A stretch of DNA of 64,000 bases, from positions 66,595-130,594 of the forward strand of contig BCIO01000007.1 of assembly GCA_001599975.1 (NCBI GenBank), read 5' to 3'. How positions within the stretch are numbered: the stretch's first letter is position 1; each line of letters begins with the position of its first letter. The notes below the pieces were generated by a model. That model worked only from the letters and a program-made list of their open reading frames with translations. It was not told where the DNA came from and did no database searches. Origin of the DNA: Cystobasidiopsis lactophilus. Its lineage: Eukaryota > Basidiomycota > Agaricostilbomycetes > Agaricostilbales > Chionosphaeraceae. Of this stretch, positions 1 to 6,865 are shown piece after piece. Both the position numbers and the translations under genes were made by a program.

Positions 1-1240
1 CTGTTTGTCCACAGAGGAAGCCGCAAATCGACGGGCACGATCACCTCCAAAGGCTTCCAATTCTTGCTGGAAGAGGTCAACCGCCAGCTTTGGGATTTGC
101 TGCTCAAGTACCTGGAGACGGCAGAGGTTCGTTGCCTGCCTTTTTACCATATTAGTTCCTTTCTAATAAAGGAGGGGGGCTGAACAGGAGAAGGAGCTAG
201 ACTTGGTCGAAGTGACAGGCTTCCTCTTCATGCTCGGCAGCTTGGAGCTCGGCGAGGTTGGTGGTGTTCTCTTTCTAAGTCCGATAGTTCTCTTTGATAG
301 CGCCAGTTTACAGGCCTATTCGACTGAGAACCTGTCAACCACGCAAATGCAAGTCTTGGCTGATCTGACCGACTACGGCTTAATCTACCGTAAGAACGTG
401 AGCGGACGCATCCACAGCTACTACAAGAGCTCGATCCTGAGTTGGTGCTCACAGGGCGAGTCGCAAATCTACTACCCGACTCGCTTGGTCACGACGCTCA
501 CCTCCTCGGCCCCGCCTTTGCTCCTCACCTCGCAAGCCAACACGGCGAAAGGCTTCCTCATTGTCGAGACGAACTATCGGGTCTACGCTTATACGAGTGC
601 GTGTTTTTCCTTACCCGTTATGAGTGCTTCTCATATGAGACCTGGAAACTTGCACAGACAACCCGTTGCAGATCGCCATCCTCAACTTGTTTTTGACGTT
701 GAAGGCCCGATTTCCCAACTTGGTCATCGGCTCTTTGACCCGCGAAAGTGTCAAAGCCGCCCTCAAGAAGGGCATCACCGCCGATCAGGTGGGTTGTTCT
801 TCCACCTATATCCCATTTCGAGATGAAAAGAGGAAGGAAAACCGCAGATCATCACCTTCTTAACGACGCACGCCCACCCTCAAATGCGCAAGCAAGAGCC
901 TCTCCTCCCACCCACCGTCACCGACCAAGTCCGACTTTGGGAGCTCGAGAAGAACCGGGTGTCCAACGCTTCCGGTTTCCTGTACGAGGACTTCAGAGCG
1001 GCCGCGGACTTCAACTTGGTGCGCGAGTACGCCCAGCAAATCAACGCCATCATCTGGCAGGCCGATCCCACCACCACGCCGCCGAACTGCTGGCGAATCT
1101 TTGTGACCGAGGCGGGGCATGTGCAAGTTCGGTGAGTGGCCGTCACCTACCCGTACTGCGAAGTGCCAACGGCATGCGCCTCCCACAGGGACTTCATCAA
1201 ACGGCGTATGGCAAACCCGGCAGCTCCAGCAGCGGGCTAG
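1..1240 (+). CDS. TFB2: TFIIH core subunit p52 (TFB2), 5' end outside window
   Basis: This is the 3' part of the gene for the p52 subunit of TFIIH, which anchors and stimulates the XPB helicase in transcription initiation and nucleotide excision repair. The visible protein has the family's landmarks in order: [20 protein letters not shown], a [15 protein letters not shown] block, [28 protein letters not shown], then the C-terminal domain that binds Tfb5 ([32 protein letters not shown]). At least five short introns interrupt it. The last is 1132-1188, and the final exon ends [16 protein letters not shown] with the stop at 1238-1240. The first about 14 bases look like the end of an intron. The start lies to the left of the window. 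The last intron resembles the intron-like units that follow the gene (see the repeat entry). Confidence 0.93.
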
Positions 1241-1250
1241 ATACATGGTC

Positions 1251-3685
1251 GTAGGTTACGTCTTACCCTCGTACTGCATCGCAGTTTTGACTTTTTCGCT
1301 TCGGTGACTGGCTTACAGTCACCGAAGCGTGGCGAACACCTGCCGGGCCTCGAACCGCCATTTAGACGGTCGCTCTTTGCGCTCATCTTCCCCTTGGCTG
1401 TCAAGCCTGAATTCAGGTAGGTTGGCCTTTTCTTCCACTTTGATGGAAGTAAATCAATCTGAGTCTTGTGCAGTGAGACTGTTGCGAAGGGGCCAGGATC
1501 GACCACCGTGGGAGCGCTCAGCTGTAGGTGCTCATCTGCCAAACTTCAATCGGAGTGGCTCCTCAAGATTTTGGACCTGCAGGGTCTTCATGAGGTCCAG
1601 AGAGACAAGAATAACAAGCAGATGTTCGGCGACGTGGCAACCGACAGACGCTCAAGTCTGATCAGCCGCTTTGCTCCTTTCAAAGTCCAACCGGATTACC
1701 CGCTCAGCAGTGGCACTGCAGACACCTTTTGTAGCCTTTCTGATGATGACAATCGCTCAAGGGCAGCTTGATTGAAAGGTCACGAGATCCGCCGGCTCCA
1801 CTCCGCTTTGCAATTGAGTTGAGCTTGAACCACGAACGAAGTCCTTCTCTGACCGAATGTCTTTCTCTGCCAATGACACCTCAACCAGTAGCTCGCGGCG
1901 CTCTGCTGCCACTTCCACCAGCCCGGCTGCTGCCCCGACGGTCTCCGCTGAAGGAGCATTGGTTGCCCAAGCCTTGCAGCAGCTGTCAAACTCCAATGTC
2001 TCGGGCTGGCTGTACGAGGACTTCCGGACAGAAGCAGACTTCCATTTCGTGCGCCACTATGCCCAGTCGATCAATGCCATCGTTTGGCAAGCGGACTCGA
2101 CTGCGACGCCGTCGAATCGATGCTGGAGGGTCTTCGTTACGGAAGCGGGACATGCGCAAGTTCGGTGGGTGCTCTTTCCTCCTGACTTCTAGTGAAGTCT
2201 CGGTTAAGGCTGCGGCTACAGGGAGTTTATCAAACGACGCATGTCGGACCCAGCACCTCCGACAGCCTAGCTGCTCTTACCCGTGAGCTGGTTTTTACCT
2301 TTGTACTGCGATTAAATATTGATCATGACCGGTCAAAGAGTACCAATAGTGCACGGCACGTAGAAAATCAGCGCCGGATCCCCTACGAGCCGAACCGGCT
2401 AAATCCTGTGTGGCGCTTGACGAAGACATGTCTAATTACTTCCGGCCCGCAAGCCCTTTGTACGTGCTTGCCTACCAAACGTCCTTTGAGGTCGTTTCAG
2501 ATTCATGGAATGGCACTACAGGCCCTTGCTTGGTATCTTACAGAAGGCAGCGGACCCTAAGTGGCCGCACGGAGGCGAATCCTTATCCTTCGGCCCTTCC
2601 CCGAATTCTGCGCTGTAGGTACAGGCCCACTCTACTTCTTTTGAAGTATCAGCAACATCTCTGCGACCTGCAGATCCATTGTGGGCATTGCCGGGCAACA
2701 GCATAGGGCGGGTGGCGAAAACCTCATTCTGTCGCCCCTTCTCCCGAAATCAGAGCTGTAGGTGCTAGGCTACCACACTCCTTCTGGAGTACTCGTCAAC
2801 TTTCTGCCCATCTACAGATTCACTGTCAGAGTCTTAACCCAGCGCAGGCGTTCAAGCGCTTTCGGGGAAGTGGCGAACCCCTCCTCGCAAAGCCTGAGTC
2901 GTACGTGCTCGTCCCCATTGACTTCTTCTGGAGTCACAGTAGACAGTTTAGCCTACAGAGTCATTAGATGAAACCCTCGCCAGCTGTACGACCTGAAGCC
3001 AGGGCGGGGTGACCAATTCCCGTCCTTCGACCGTTCTCCCAAATGTTGAGCTGTGGGTCTTTGCCACCGTACTCCTTCTGAAGTCTCTTCCAAGATCTTT
3101 GAACCCACAGATCACTTGTCGGCATCGCTGGGAAGCGCAGAAGGTCAAAGCCACGCGGGCGAGTGGCGAGCCCTCCATCTTCGGCTCTTGTTCAATCTAT
3201 GTTGTAGGTGCACGCCCACTCTACTTCGTTTGAGGAGTGTACAGACTGTGTACGGCCTACAGACCCTATTGTTGGCATTCTCGGCAAGCGCAGAAGCCGA
3301 TGAGCACAAGGTGGCCAATCCTCATGTCTTCGGTCAACCCTTCAAAGTCAGAGCTGTAAGTGTTGGTCTACCGCACTCCTTATGAAGTTCTCAGTGAATG
3401 TCGATGACCTACAGATCTACTGCATGCATCTCGGGGAAGCGCAAAAGTACAAGAGCGCGTGGGGAGATGGCGAAGCCTCGTGCCTCCGGCTGTCCTCCAA
3501 GGCGTAGGTTCTCGACTACCGCACTCCGTATGAAGTTCCTTTTTAGTCTACTTTCCTACAGGTCCATGGTCGGCACCTTGGGCAAATGCAGCGGGTGGCG
3601 GGTGGCGAAAATCGTCAGTCTTCCAATCGGTAGGCCCTTGATCCCCCTCAACTCCATTCGTAGTTGTTGACCAAAGATCCTACAG
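1251..3685 (+). repeat. Tandem array of intron-like (GT...AG) modules behind TFB2
   Basis: Starting 11 bases after the TFB2 stop, segments beginning GTAGGT/GTACGT/GTGGGT/GTAAGT and ending CTACAG, CTGCAG or CCACAG recur at 1251-1318, 1417-1473, 1524-1582, 2165-2221, 2460-2521, 2615-2673, 2758-2817, 2901-2958, 3053-3110, 3204-3262, 3356-3414, 3504-3561 and 3630-3685. Each is 56-68 nt. From 2460 on, start-to-start spacing is 143-155 bp, and 126 for the last unit. Inside the segments a block like CACTCCTTCTGAAGT recurs near base 20-30. The intervening exon-like pieces (68-94 nt) also align, with a core near GGCATCxCGGGAAGCGCAGAAG. Read from their second base, most pieces are open and share a basic peptide of the type S-x-V-G-I-A-G-K-R-R-R-S, but the piece at 2959-3052 carries a stop, so coding is unproven. 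The array could be a duplicated exon-intron unit, an introner-like family, or a satellite that happens to look like introns. Confidence 0.7.
1857..2270 (+). CDS. Free-standing copy of the TFB2 C-terminal (Tfb5-binding) domain
   Basis: Exons 1857-2164 and 2222-2270 encode about 118 residues. After a Ser/Thr/Ala-rich N-terminus of about 45 residues, the rest closely matches the C-terminal domain of the upstream TFB2: SGWLYEDFRTEADFHFVRHY, QSINAIVWQADSTATP, WRVFVTEAGHAQVR, then EFIKRRMSDPAPPTA and stop. The intron (2165-2221) lies at exactly the same codon position and phase as the last TFB2 intron. In TFB2 orthologues this domain forms a heterodimer with Tfb5 (established knowledge). What the isolated domain does is inference: it could compete for Tfb5, or be a non-functional partial duplicate. 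The ATG at 1857 is the first in frame; an upstream exon cannot be excluded. Substitutions are largely conservative, which favours past selection on the protein. Confidence 0.7.
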
Positions 3686-4330
3686 ATGCTCTCCTTATGC
3701 CCTTGTCGCGTTGCTCCATAAATTTAGAGGAGGTTGATTAGGCCATCATTGATCGAGAACTTTTCCTCTCGCACGGCTTGCCCGAACCCGCTGAGTCGAG
3801 TGGTCCACCATCCCCCCGTTGGCCTGTTCGCACATTTGCGACTGGCTTCTCTCCATTTACGAACCAACATTAATCAACAGCAGCCCGCCCAGGCCTAATC
3901 GAGTGTTGGACCGAAGTTACTCGGCGGCGCCCGCAAAATTTTTTGAAGGCCTCTTCAAAGTCCAGCGCTTGATTGTCGCTCTTGGACCTTTGGCCTTTTG
4001 ACTTGTAATTCTCTTCTGTACACACCTTGGTGAGTTTCCCCTTAGCACTAGCCCCGGGTCCATAACCAGAGGCTTACTATCGAAGGGCAATCCACTGCAG
4101 CCGGGGTTTTTGTGCGACTTTTGTTTTTTGTTTCGACTTTGTGACCTTTGGGAAGCTGCTCACTGGTGCGTGGGCGTCACTGTATGTACTGGGGGAGATT
4201 GGCAAGCTAAATCCTGGGGCAAAGCAGCGGGTGGCAAACCGAAGAGTGCGGGTTCGGTCCCAGCGACTTCTATGATCTATCCTCTAGGTTCGTCTGCGTC
4301 CTTACCATTAGCCTAGAGTCAGGCTAAATC
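3686..4330. other. No gene recognised; presumed promoter region of the Btz gene
   Basis: This 645-base stretch follows the module array. I see no ORF with family resemblance. It may hold the 5' untranslated region, or an upstream exon of the next gene. The sequence near 4246 has a weak tRNA B-box look but no matching A-box or cloverleaf. Confidence 0.4.
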
Positions 4331-6865
4331 GTGTATGGGGAACGAACAGCGGTCCAGCCTCGCTTGCGGCCGCACCGAGACCTCGCCGACTCCATCTCCT
4401 ACATCTTCTCCCGCCCCCGCGAGCCGAGCTTGATGGAGGGCGTCCCTACGTCTAAGCCAGCCACCATCTTCCGCCTGCCCCCCTCCGCCGCTTCCATCCT
4501 CGTCGCCAACTCCAAAAAGGACCCAACCCGGTCCTCGACGGCTTCCCTCTTGGCCCAGGCCGCGCTGGCCAGACAACAGCACTCGCCAGCGACTTTGGGA
4601 GAGGAAGGCAGCGAGACCGGTTCCAGCGCAGTCCCGGGGCAGGATCTGTCCGCGTCCACCTCCACCTTGGACACCGTCGACACCGAGCTCACCCCGCCTT
4701 CGTCCTCCACCACCGCCTTGGACCCGGCTGGCACCCCGCCCGTCGTCCAACAGCAGCAACAGTCGGAAAAGGCGATCCAGGCCGCCAAGAAGAAGGCGGC
4801 CGCGGAGAAGCGAAAGAGGAGGAAGGAGAGGGACCGAGCTGCCAAGCTGGCCTCCTCCTCCTCGTCGACACCTGCTTCTCAAGATCAACAAGTGACCCGA
4901 GCTCCATCTGTGACTTCCTCAGAAGCGTCCACCCCGCCACCGGTAGCCTCCACCTCCAAGCTCCTCAGTTTCCCGCCCGTCGCAAGTTGGGCGGACGACT
5001 TGCCCCCCTCTTCCTCCTCTTCACCTTTGCCAGACTTCACAGCTTTGTCCCCCCGATCCACCACTGGGCCAGCAGAGGACCCAACTTTCATCCCCCGCGT
5101 TGGCAAGTTTTGGGGCCACGACGAGCGCGGTTCGTCTTCGGGGCAAGAATGGCGGCGGAACTCTAGAGCTTCGACTTCGCCCGGCGACGCGCTCAGGAGG
5201 CGAGGCAGCTTGGCCCAGCCATCCTCCACCAGGGCCTCTTCGGTTCAAGGAGCGGATACCCGGCCGCAAAGCCCAGCTTCCAGCGCAGGCGGTTGGCAAG
5301 AGGTCCAATCGAGGGTCCAGCAGCGAAGGCCGCCGGTGGTGGGCCAGGCCATGGGTGGAGGGAAAGGCGCTTTCGGAGTGGCAGGGTCAGCAGGGGGCAA
5401 GAAGGGCGCGGCGGCGTGGACGCACGATAAGTTTGAAGAGCTCGAGTCTGGTCCTTCCAAGGTTCGTTCTCCTCCCCTTTCATTCACTTTCTTTGGGAAT
5501 ATGGTTTGAAGGGTAACGAAACAGCACTCGAATTCGAACCAGCGGCCAATCCAAACCGTCTTCTCCCTCTTTGGCGAACCGCCATGGACGATCCGCTCCC
5601 CTTTTCCCTACCTCTTCAACGAAGGCGGCTCTCGCACGGGCGTGGACGAAAAGACGGGCCAGCGGAAGATGACGCTCCGGATCTCCCTCCACCCCATCCC
5701 CGACCTGGCTTCCCCCACCGCCAACAAGCGAGCCGCCAGGGCGAGGGCCAACGTCGTCGAGGTCGACTGCTACCTCACCGTCACCCGGCCAGCGAGCGTG
5801 GACCTGTCCAAGTTGGGGGAAGACACCACCATCGTCCTCAAGCTCTCCCCGAAAGCGGTCGCGCAGAGGTTCCCATCGCCGGCTGGGTTGGCGAAGAGGC
5901 AAAGGGAAGCGGCGGCGAAGAAGGAGGAAGGACAGCGGGCACCGACGCCAGTGGCGACTCCGGCCCTGTCAGAGGTCGCTCCTCCCTCCGTGGCGGCAGA
6001 GGTGGAGCAGGAAAAGGAGGTGGAAGAGAGTGCGCTTCAAGAGCTGTCTCAAGTGCCGACCAAGACGGAAGCCGAGTCCAACGCGGAAGCTTCGGCCCAA
6101 CTTCGGTCCGCCCTCTTGTCCCCCTCTTCCACCACCAACGGCGTCGGCGAGCAAGACGTGCCCAGCGTCGAGCAGCAAATGGCCGCTCAAGACCAAGAGC
6201 GTCACTTCTCTTCCTCCCAACACCCTCCTCCCGGGCAATTCATGTTTCCTCCACCTCCACCGCCAGAAGGCTACGAAGGCTTCCCGCCACCGCCTGGCCC
6301 GCCGGAGGGGTATGGTGCTTTCTCGCCGTACCCGATATTCCACGACCCTTTCATTGGCATGGACGGCATCACCTACTACTTTGACCCTCAGTCTGGGCAG
6401 TCCCTCCCTGGCCCCCCTCTCCAATTCCCACCTCCTCCACCTGGTTTCGGGTTCGACCCCAACACCATGTCGCCCTCTGCAGCTAGCAATGGCCCGCCAG
6501 CGTTCTTCGCCACGCCGAGGAAGTCGCACAAGCTCGAGATCCGAGCGCCGACGGCGGAGGACAAGAAGGCGCGCAAGCACCGCGGCACGCCTTCCACCGC
6601 CCACCTCCTGCACGCCCCGCAGCAGCCGTCGATGGACGAGCAGCTCGCCCCGCCCGACTTCTTCGTCCCCGGCTCCTTCCAAGCCGGCGGCGCCGTCTTC
6701 TTCGCCCCGCCCGGCTCTTACCCTTTTCCGCCTCCACCAGCGGCCTACTACCCTCCGCCGCCGCCGCCTGGCATGGACCAGCAGCAGCAAGGGGCGTACT
6801 TTGATCCGGCCATCTTGGCCTCTGGTCCGCCGACTCAAGATTCCTCCTCCGCTCTTCATCAGTAA
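4331..6865 (+). CDS. Btz/CASC3-domain protein (exon junction complex)
   Basis: Two exons, 4331-5461 and 5525-6865, joined in phase 0, give about 820 residues. The Barentsz signature is split in two parts: FIPRVGKFWGHDER near residue 253 and WTHDKFEELE near residue 363. In CASC3/Barentsz these segments wrap around eIF4A3 in the exon junction complex (established knowledge), so a role in mRNP assembly, decay or localisation is likely. The rest is disordered: Ser/Pro-rich N-terminal third, a basic Lys/Arg stretch near residues 150-170 (AAKKKAAAEKRKRRKERDR), and a Pro/Gly/Tyr-rich C-terminal half with PPPPPPEGYEGFPPPPG-like runs and a Gln-rich end. After the intron a conserved-looking block (QTVFSLFGEPPWTIRSPFPY) follows. 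The start is uncertain: the first ATG of the frame is used, but an upstream exon or the ATG near residue 35 (MEGVPTSKPATIFRLPPS) is possible. Confidence 0.8.

Follow-up and report, generated by a model that had tools for sequence, protein, structure and literature searches.

Introns whose two ends pair with each other have been described from euglenids. In the nonconventional introns of these organisms nucleotides +4, +5 and +6 pair with -6, -7 and -8, which brings the junctions together; they have neither GT-AG borders nor complementarity to U1, and their removal is unexplained (PMC4770533). The ends of diplonemid noncanonical introns pair as well (PMC12621601). How euglenozoan introns of this kind are removed, and whether they arose from ordinary introns, are the questions at stake. 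Here we analyse a stretch of 64,000 nucleotides of the basidiomycete Cystobasidiopsis lactophilus (the window; assembly GCA_001599975.1, contig BCIO01000007.1, positions 66,595 to 130,594), in which a tandem array of intron-like segments follows the gene TFB2. We consider it rather probable that this array is a tandemly repeated non-coding module of exon plus intron, and that its introns are part of a genome-wide class of GT-AG introns with two helices.

With the euglenid nonconventional introns the introns of this fungus share the register, +k with -(k+2), and sequences that differ while the pairing stays (PMC4770533). Unlike those, they have GT-AG borders and an enriched U2-type branch motif, and they show no surplus of the most constant euglenid pairs, +5/-7 and +6/-8; the excess lies at 3/-5, 4/-6 and 7/-9. 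The conventional and intermediate introns of euglenids also combine GT-AG borders with structure joining the ends; the authors find no structural elements common to them and deem them ordinary (PMC4770533), whereas here one register is enriched over 326 predicted introns. Structure likewise spans the intron ends in the bridged introns of fish, which carry AC/GU tracts (Lin et al. 2015, as described in PMC7404189). Unlike theirs, the stems here consist of no AC/GU repeats but are varied (GTTCG/CGAAC, GTTGG/CCAAC, GTGGG/CCCAC) and include splice-site nucleotides, as judged on printed introns and with no repeat search.

Fungal introns offer further comparisons. Zipper and downstream stems are common in Saccharomyces introns and shorten the distances between splicing signals, as the present stems might; zipper stems begin at least 10 nt past the 5' splice site, away from the splice sites (PMC12350175), unlike the stem described here, which begins at intron nucleotide 1 and holds the splice sites. 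The structured introns of S. pombe (Sde2/Cay1/Tls1) are similar in that structure bridges a long distance from branch to AG, but the pairing there lies within that segment and does not involve the 5' splice site (PMC9508853). Terminal inverted repeats are a trait of introners (PMC9860276) and of Hypoxylaceae stwintrons (PMC8469720); unlike the introns of this study, among which none such was found, those are families of highly similar copies. Among the papers listed in literature searches we recognised none that describes GT-AG introns with paired ends from a basidiomycete, a result that does not prove absence. A fungus with GT-AG, branch-point introns in the euglenozoan register would be a tractable intermediate, and could show if splicing is helped, blocked or timed by the helix and if introns of this kind originate from inverted repeats inserted on AG.

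Array units and predicted pairing of intron ends

The first-pass annotation of this DNA had placed at least twelve GT..AG segments of 56-68 nt directly behind TFB2. We found 13, spread over 1251-3685, with donors GTRNG(T/C) and acceptors (C/T)AG; the pairs 2283-2349 and 2681-2753 and alternative acceptors for 1417, 1524, 2758 and 2901 were set aside. By position the segments do lie behind TFB2, although a copy of the TFB2 C-terminal domain splits the interval (Table 1). The nine segments from 2460 onward, all 56-62 nt long, belong to homologous units in which exon and intron were duplicated together. Self-BLAST matches the units to each other (E 1e-12, for example 2614-2794 with 3203-3392 at 70% identity), and a profile of the unit recovers all nine as well as intron 1524-1582. 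The intron starts are 155, 143, 143, 152, 151, 152, 148 and 126 bp apart; the regular spacing of 143-155 bp that had been described thus holds for the first seven intervals and not for the last. Intron 2165-2221 is not a significant homologue (unit profile E 8.8; intron profile 0.066), and the segments at 1251 and 1417, for which neither profile listed a match, are intron-like without demonstrable homology. TRF reported no array at 1251-3685, presumably on account of the strong divergence of the copies.

Invariance across the nine units is more frequent in the splice-site columns (6 of 10) than in the remaining ones (9 of 127; Fisher p 1e-4, in a post hoc test of boundaries that had been picked as splice sites). 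The earlier statement that the intron part, and not only the spacer, is conserved is overstated, mean pairwise identity in units 1-8 being 59% in intron columns, 53% in these once the splice columns are left out, and 51% in exon columns. Read in each of its three frames, the spliced exon sequence contains 4, 1 and 5 stops. A protein-coding exon repeat was rejected on these stops and on a longest open stretch of 133 against a shuffle mean of 120 (p 0.28). An older coding past is possible, because the total of 10 stops lies a little below the shuffle value of 14.1 (p 0.08). The array most likely represents a spliced non-coding transcript or an untranslated region on the strand of TFB2, between the lone Tfb2 C-terminal-domain gene and a Btz/CASC3-like gene.

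Folding predicts that in most array introns the first nucleotides pair with those immediately preceding the terminal AG, in the register +k/-(k+2). This pairing, and its sharing by many introns of the genome, had escaped the first-pass annotation. Paired ends (pairing probability P>0.5) were predicted in 8 of the 9 array introns and in 37% of 311 genome introns, a share that stood at 14% after the last 12 nt had been swapped. In the alignment of the nine introns 87% of the cells of the terminal helix (helix 1) and 80% of those of an inner hairpin were paired, compared with 32-38% when the whole structure was slid by 1-3 columns; the comparison flatters the structure, which was drawn from the sequences it was scored on. 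Array intron 3053 carries a double compensatory change at pair 3/-5. RNAalifold returned no consensus pairs for the nine introns, and the profile model of the array intron is therefore one of sequence only.

For the wider genome we used a home-made gene finder that scored donors and acceptors independently of each other and demanded GT..AG borders; other border types were not sought. Intron-by-intron reading covered approximately 1.4% of the genome: a sample of 310,595 bases yielded 73 genes and 327 introns, 326 of them outside the array. Introns of the array region (window 1100-4400, + strand) were removed from every genome set, and lengths were limited to 45-80 nt (the swap test on 311 introns, profile and clustering tests) or 48-78 nt (pairing-probability, hairpin, branch and exonic-AG tests). 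Compared with re-dealt acceptors, the register +k/-(k+2) was enriched in the 326 introns with z 10.4 (9.1 in a second run), and stems of at least 5 bp at the exact register numbered 87 where 33 were expected. Ten other registers gave z values of -1.9 to 3.0. A stricter set of 111 introns yielded z 5.7 (35 stems, 13 expected), and two sets of 326 decoy GT..AG pairs yielded -1.0 and -0.1. Without gene finding, a scan returned 112 end-paired segments on plus strands, this locus included, versus 28 in reversed sequence.

The excess was greatest at pairs 3/-5 and 4/-6 (z 7.2 each), followed by 7/-9 (z 3.7). Watson-Crick pairs were enriched 1.5-1.65 fold at 3/-5 and 4/-6, with mismatches depleted. 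Pairs 5/-7 and 6/-8 were formed in 65.6% and 45.1% of introns, about as often as with re-dealt acceptors (z 0.7 and 1.4); covariation cannot show at +5 because that position is nearly always G.

Two classes of predicted GT-AG intron

Among 308 introns, 113 were end-paired (P>0.5) and 162 unpaired (P<0.1); the 33 between these limits were omitted from class comparisons. The paired class has a second element, an inner hairpin about 30 nt from the intron end: of 14 distance bins, the one at 30 nt reaches z 10.8 (mononucleotide shuffles), as opposed to -0.1 for that bin in unpaired introns. A hairpin 24-36 nt from the end was present in 60/113 paired introns (26 in shuffles, z 8.3) and in 47/162 unpaired ones (38 in shuffles, z 1.9). 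For any inner hairpin, dinucleotide shuffles gave z 5.9 in the paired and 1.0 in the unpaired class. The branch motif CTNA occurred in 68-74% of introns across four paired/unpaired classes (28-32% in shuffles), its enrichment being about equal in paired and unpaired introns; since both have it, both look spliceosomal. The median distance from branch to intron end was longer in paired introns (21 nt versus 17 nt, p 2e-6).

Paired introns are concentrated in certain genes (dispersion z 7.4, a value reached in 0 of 2000 permutations). Of 33 genes with at least four introns, 8 had at least 70% of them paired (2.5 expected) and 12 had at most 15% (3.1 expected). TFB2 and a second gene that we take to be NOP58-like together have 14 predicted introns, and in 12 of these the ends pair with P of at least 0.69. 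In an actin-family gene (PF00022), which presumably resembles Arp2, the two ends change together: GTTCGT with CGAAC, GTTGGT with CCAAC, GTGCGT with CGCAC and GTCAGC with CTGAC. The gene has eight introns, of which one is mismatched (GTTCGT with GCAAC).

Neighbouring genes showed no correlation of pairing (48 gene pairs), and over 55 genes neither coding score (p 0.07) nor GC3 (p 0.19) nor intron density (p 0.97) was explanatory. Functional category was considered as the cause and set aside, the division not being clean (Pfam, longest exon, 40 of 62 genes): among the low-pairing genes are those for CBF/Mak21, Tau95, NGP1NT, BUD22 and PRP38 proteins, and also for transketolase, isocitrate dehydrogenase, FMO and aspartyl protease.

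Two tandem stretches of about 69% identity on C4 (133501-136800; L027:3501-6800) are rich in end-paired introns; they were not called by the gene finder and each contains an exon-like gap of 29 nt. Their paralogous introns mostly retain pairing and hairpin despite some base changes. One paralogue pair shows a double compensatory change, A4-U to G4-C.

In such an intron helix 1 would join its first ~6 nt to the nucleotides directly upstream of the terminal AG, with the AG itself unpaired, and helix 2 would be the hairpin centred about 30 nt upstream of the intron end. The closed form would bring the 5' and 3' splice sites near each other, and the terminal helix would have to be opened by U1/U6 and by the second-step machinery. 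Removal of the intron would thus depend on structure and could be controlled gene by gene, a layer of control that the clustering by gene suggests and that is testable. It is conceivable, and we put it forward tentatively, that these introns form a second spliceosomal class, used gene by gene, in which terminal helix and positioned hairpin act as part of the splicing signal; it would be convergent with the euglenozoan introns, would be handled by the U2 spliceosome, and would be exploited by the array. If true, intron structure would be the basis of a splicing regulon, and the array, beside a gene for an exon-junction-complex (EJC) protein, would make use of it as a non-coding RNA or leader.

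Genome searches for small nuclear RNAs found U2 at 2 places and U6 at 4 places. U1 (RF00003) was not found in the genome at E values up to 10, the first of the searches matching no control genome either, and the U1 of this genome may be divergent. The genome matches a U1 5' end sequence exactly at three places, none of which resembled a U1 gene.

Alternative readings of the array

Several observations weigh against a two-helix intron module. Within the array covariation is weak (its score was reached by 56/500 shuffles) and acceptor swaps between units cost no pairing (3.74 vs 3.67 pairs), so the array's pairing could be due to shared ancestry. Array intron 3356 has no terminal stem, the canonical branch motif is poor or absent in several units, none of the nine introns is preceded by an exonic AG, and by duplex energy alone the array introns fall at genome percentiles 0.09 to 0.80, so that part of them stands out. 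On the genome side, the gene finder is rough and false introns are present in its set; with a coding-score cut stricter still, which left 32 introns, the paired fraction was no higher (31%), and this fraction differs by stretch, from 22% to 61%. The offset +3 register is also somewhat raised (z 3.0; strict set 3.2). G-U pairs stand at 0.92-0.96 of expectation at 3/-5 and 4/-6, and at 1.15-1.19 at 7/-9 and 8/-10. On C4, the paralogue copy that bears the double change has lost pair 5/-7. Compensation by stems for weak donors or a missing branch motif was considered and not seen, the trend with U1 match being slightly positive (rho 0.14).

The stem might instead be a birth mark rather than a splicing signal: end-paired introns would descend from inserted elements with GT...AC inverted repeats and a duplicated 2-nt AG target, the intron being element plus AG, and the array would be a later tandem duplication. 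Inverted repeats combined with duplication of a 2-nt AG would produce this register, an exonic AG precedes 43/113 paired but 27/162 unpaired introns (p 8e-5), and introners bearing terminal inverted repeats and target-site duplications are known, although the fungal (ascomycete) introners described so far are reported to have neither (PMC9860276). The exonic AG could alternatively, by being stronger, help U1 to invade the stem, and of the three introns flanking the array only 1417 has it. Longer direct repeats are absent from the junctions (z -0.4; -2.7 to 1.2 over the alignments tried). The introner trait of terminal inverted repeats is present here as end pairing, with stem sequences varying between introns, whereas many similar copies in unrelated genes were not found in the searches made: 311 genome and 15 window introns contain 11 similar pairs (E<0.01), two of them within the array and three, by their order, probably between gene paralogues. 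Because the stems are of many unrelated sequences and similar introns are few, the pairing of an old common repeat would be expected to have decayed if it was not under selection, and double compensatory changes followed duplication in array intron 3053 and in the C4 paralogues. We regard such an insertion origin as rather unlikely; it is compatible with later selection on pairing.

An introner-like family spreading in tandem was one of three proposals of the first-pass annotation, together with a spliced non-coding RNA and a long alternative 3' end of TFB2. The joint duplication of exon and intron speaks against the first, as do three DNA searches of the whole genome (22.1 Mb, 8 contigs) with the array and its flanks, which matched this locus alone, a result that does not prove rarity. 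The copies in other genes that had been envisaged were not recovered by the array intron profile either, whose best match in a set of 311 other introns, at E 0.031, is not clearly related. The long 3' end is weakened by the Tfb2 C-terminal-domain gene lying between. The spliced non-coding RNA fits best of the three, given the exon stops and the splice signals kept in nine units, with the qualification that a coding past is possible.

A plain minisatellite or a decaying duplicated gene, with unused splice-like boundaries inherited from one ancestral intron, would account for the stops in all frames, for unit identities of only about 51% (exon) to 59% (intron), for the unit without a stem and for the poor branch motifs. 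Against this reading stand the more frequent invariance of the splice-site columns and the uniform intron length; the high pairing of both helices compared with slid structures points the same way, in a comparison that is partly circular. We consider it unlikely. It is more doubtful still that the array forms a multi-intron 5' leader or upstream RNA of the Btz/CASC3-like gene, on which many EJCs would be loaded as feedback on the supply of EJC protein. Btz/CASC3 is an EJC protein, the gene that follows on this strand is Btz-like (PF09405), and what is probably its first intron shares the two-helix form. Against a leader, the last array intron and intron 4288 are about 600 nt apart, with no array units between them, and a spliced RNA of 2271-4433 with intron 4288 kept in would carry 16 ATGs, with frames of up to 109 codons.

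Layout of the locus and the TFB2 copy

The features of the locus are collected in Table 1. The last intron and last exon of TFB2 were placed by hand, the gene finder having ended the gene at 1135. The spliced TFB2 protein is 66% identical to its best relative across 99% of its length; the best relatives among the matches listed are two JGI proteins (66% and 64%), followed by Cystobasidium minutum (52%), which points to a fungus belonging to Pucciniomycotina or close to it. The start codon of the Btz-like gene is uncertain, being at 4272 in the gene model or at the ATG at 4433. Rfam families gave a single match in window positions 1-6000, at E 2 and far under its cut-off, and the window contains 0 tRNA genes.

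Table 1. Coordinates of genes, intron-like segments and array introns in the window (P, predicted probability of paired ends)
Feature	Position	Strand	Remarks
TFB2, 3' part	1..1240	+	PF18307 Tfb2_C; gene model start L003 5835; stop 1238-1240
TFB2 last intron	1132..1188	+	end-paired, P 0.98
Intron-like segment	1251..1318	+	paired ends (P 1.0), inner hairpin; starts 10 nt past TFB2 stop
Intron-like segment	1417..1473	+	inner hairpin; ends unpaired (P 0.01)
Intron-like segment, homologue of array introns	1524..1582	+	unit profile (nhmmer) E 5.7e-6; intron profile 8.4e-5; P 1.0
Lone Tfb2 C-terminal-domain gene, 118 aa, one intron	1857..2270	+	PF18307 E 1.2e-8
Intron of Tfb2-C copy	2165..2221	+	paired ends (P 1.0), 6-bp inner hairpin
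Array intron 1	2460..2521	+	P 0.87
Array introns 2-8 and eight exon-like spacers (93, 84, 83, 94, 93, 93, 89, 68 nt)	2522..3629	+
Array intron 2	2615..2673	+	P 0.99
Array intron 3	2758..2817	+	P 1.0
Array intron 4	2901..2958	+	P 0.93
Array intron 5	3053..3110	+	P 0.99; double change A3-U to G3-C
Array intron 6	3204..3262	+	P 0.99
Array intron 7	3356..3414	+	P 0.03, terminal pairing not predicted
Array intron 8	3504..3561	+	P 0.99
Array intron 9	3630..3685	+	P 1.0
Btz/CASC3 (Barentsz)-like gene	4272..6865	+	PF09405 E 1.3e-6; gene model
Likely first intron of Btz gene	4288..4349	+	terminal stem of 6 bp (by eye), inner hairpin of 7 bp; P 1.0

The Tfb2-C copy is 70% identical to TFB2 962-1233 (self-BLAST) and its intron lies at the same position as in TFB2. 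A protein search with the lone domain retained 0 of 43 candidates at E 0.001, candidates being restricted to similar length. Over 72 codons the copy and TFB2 differ at 15 first, 5 second and 37 third codon positions, with nonsynonymous and synonymous divergences (dN and dS, NG86) of 0.15 and 1.79. These values and the distribution over codon positions indicate that the small gene is evolving under purifying selection.

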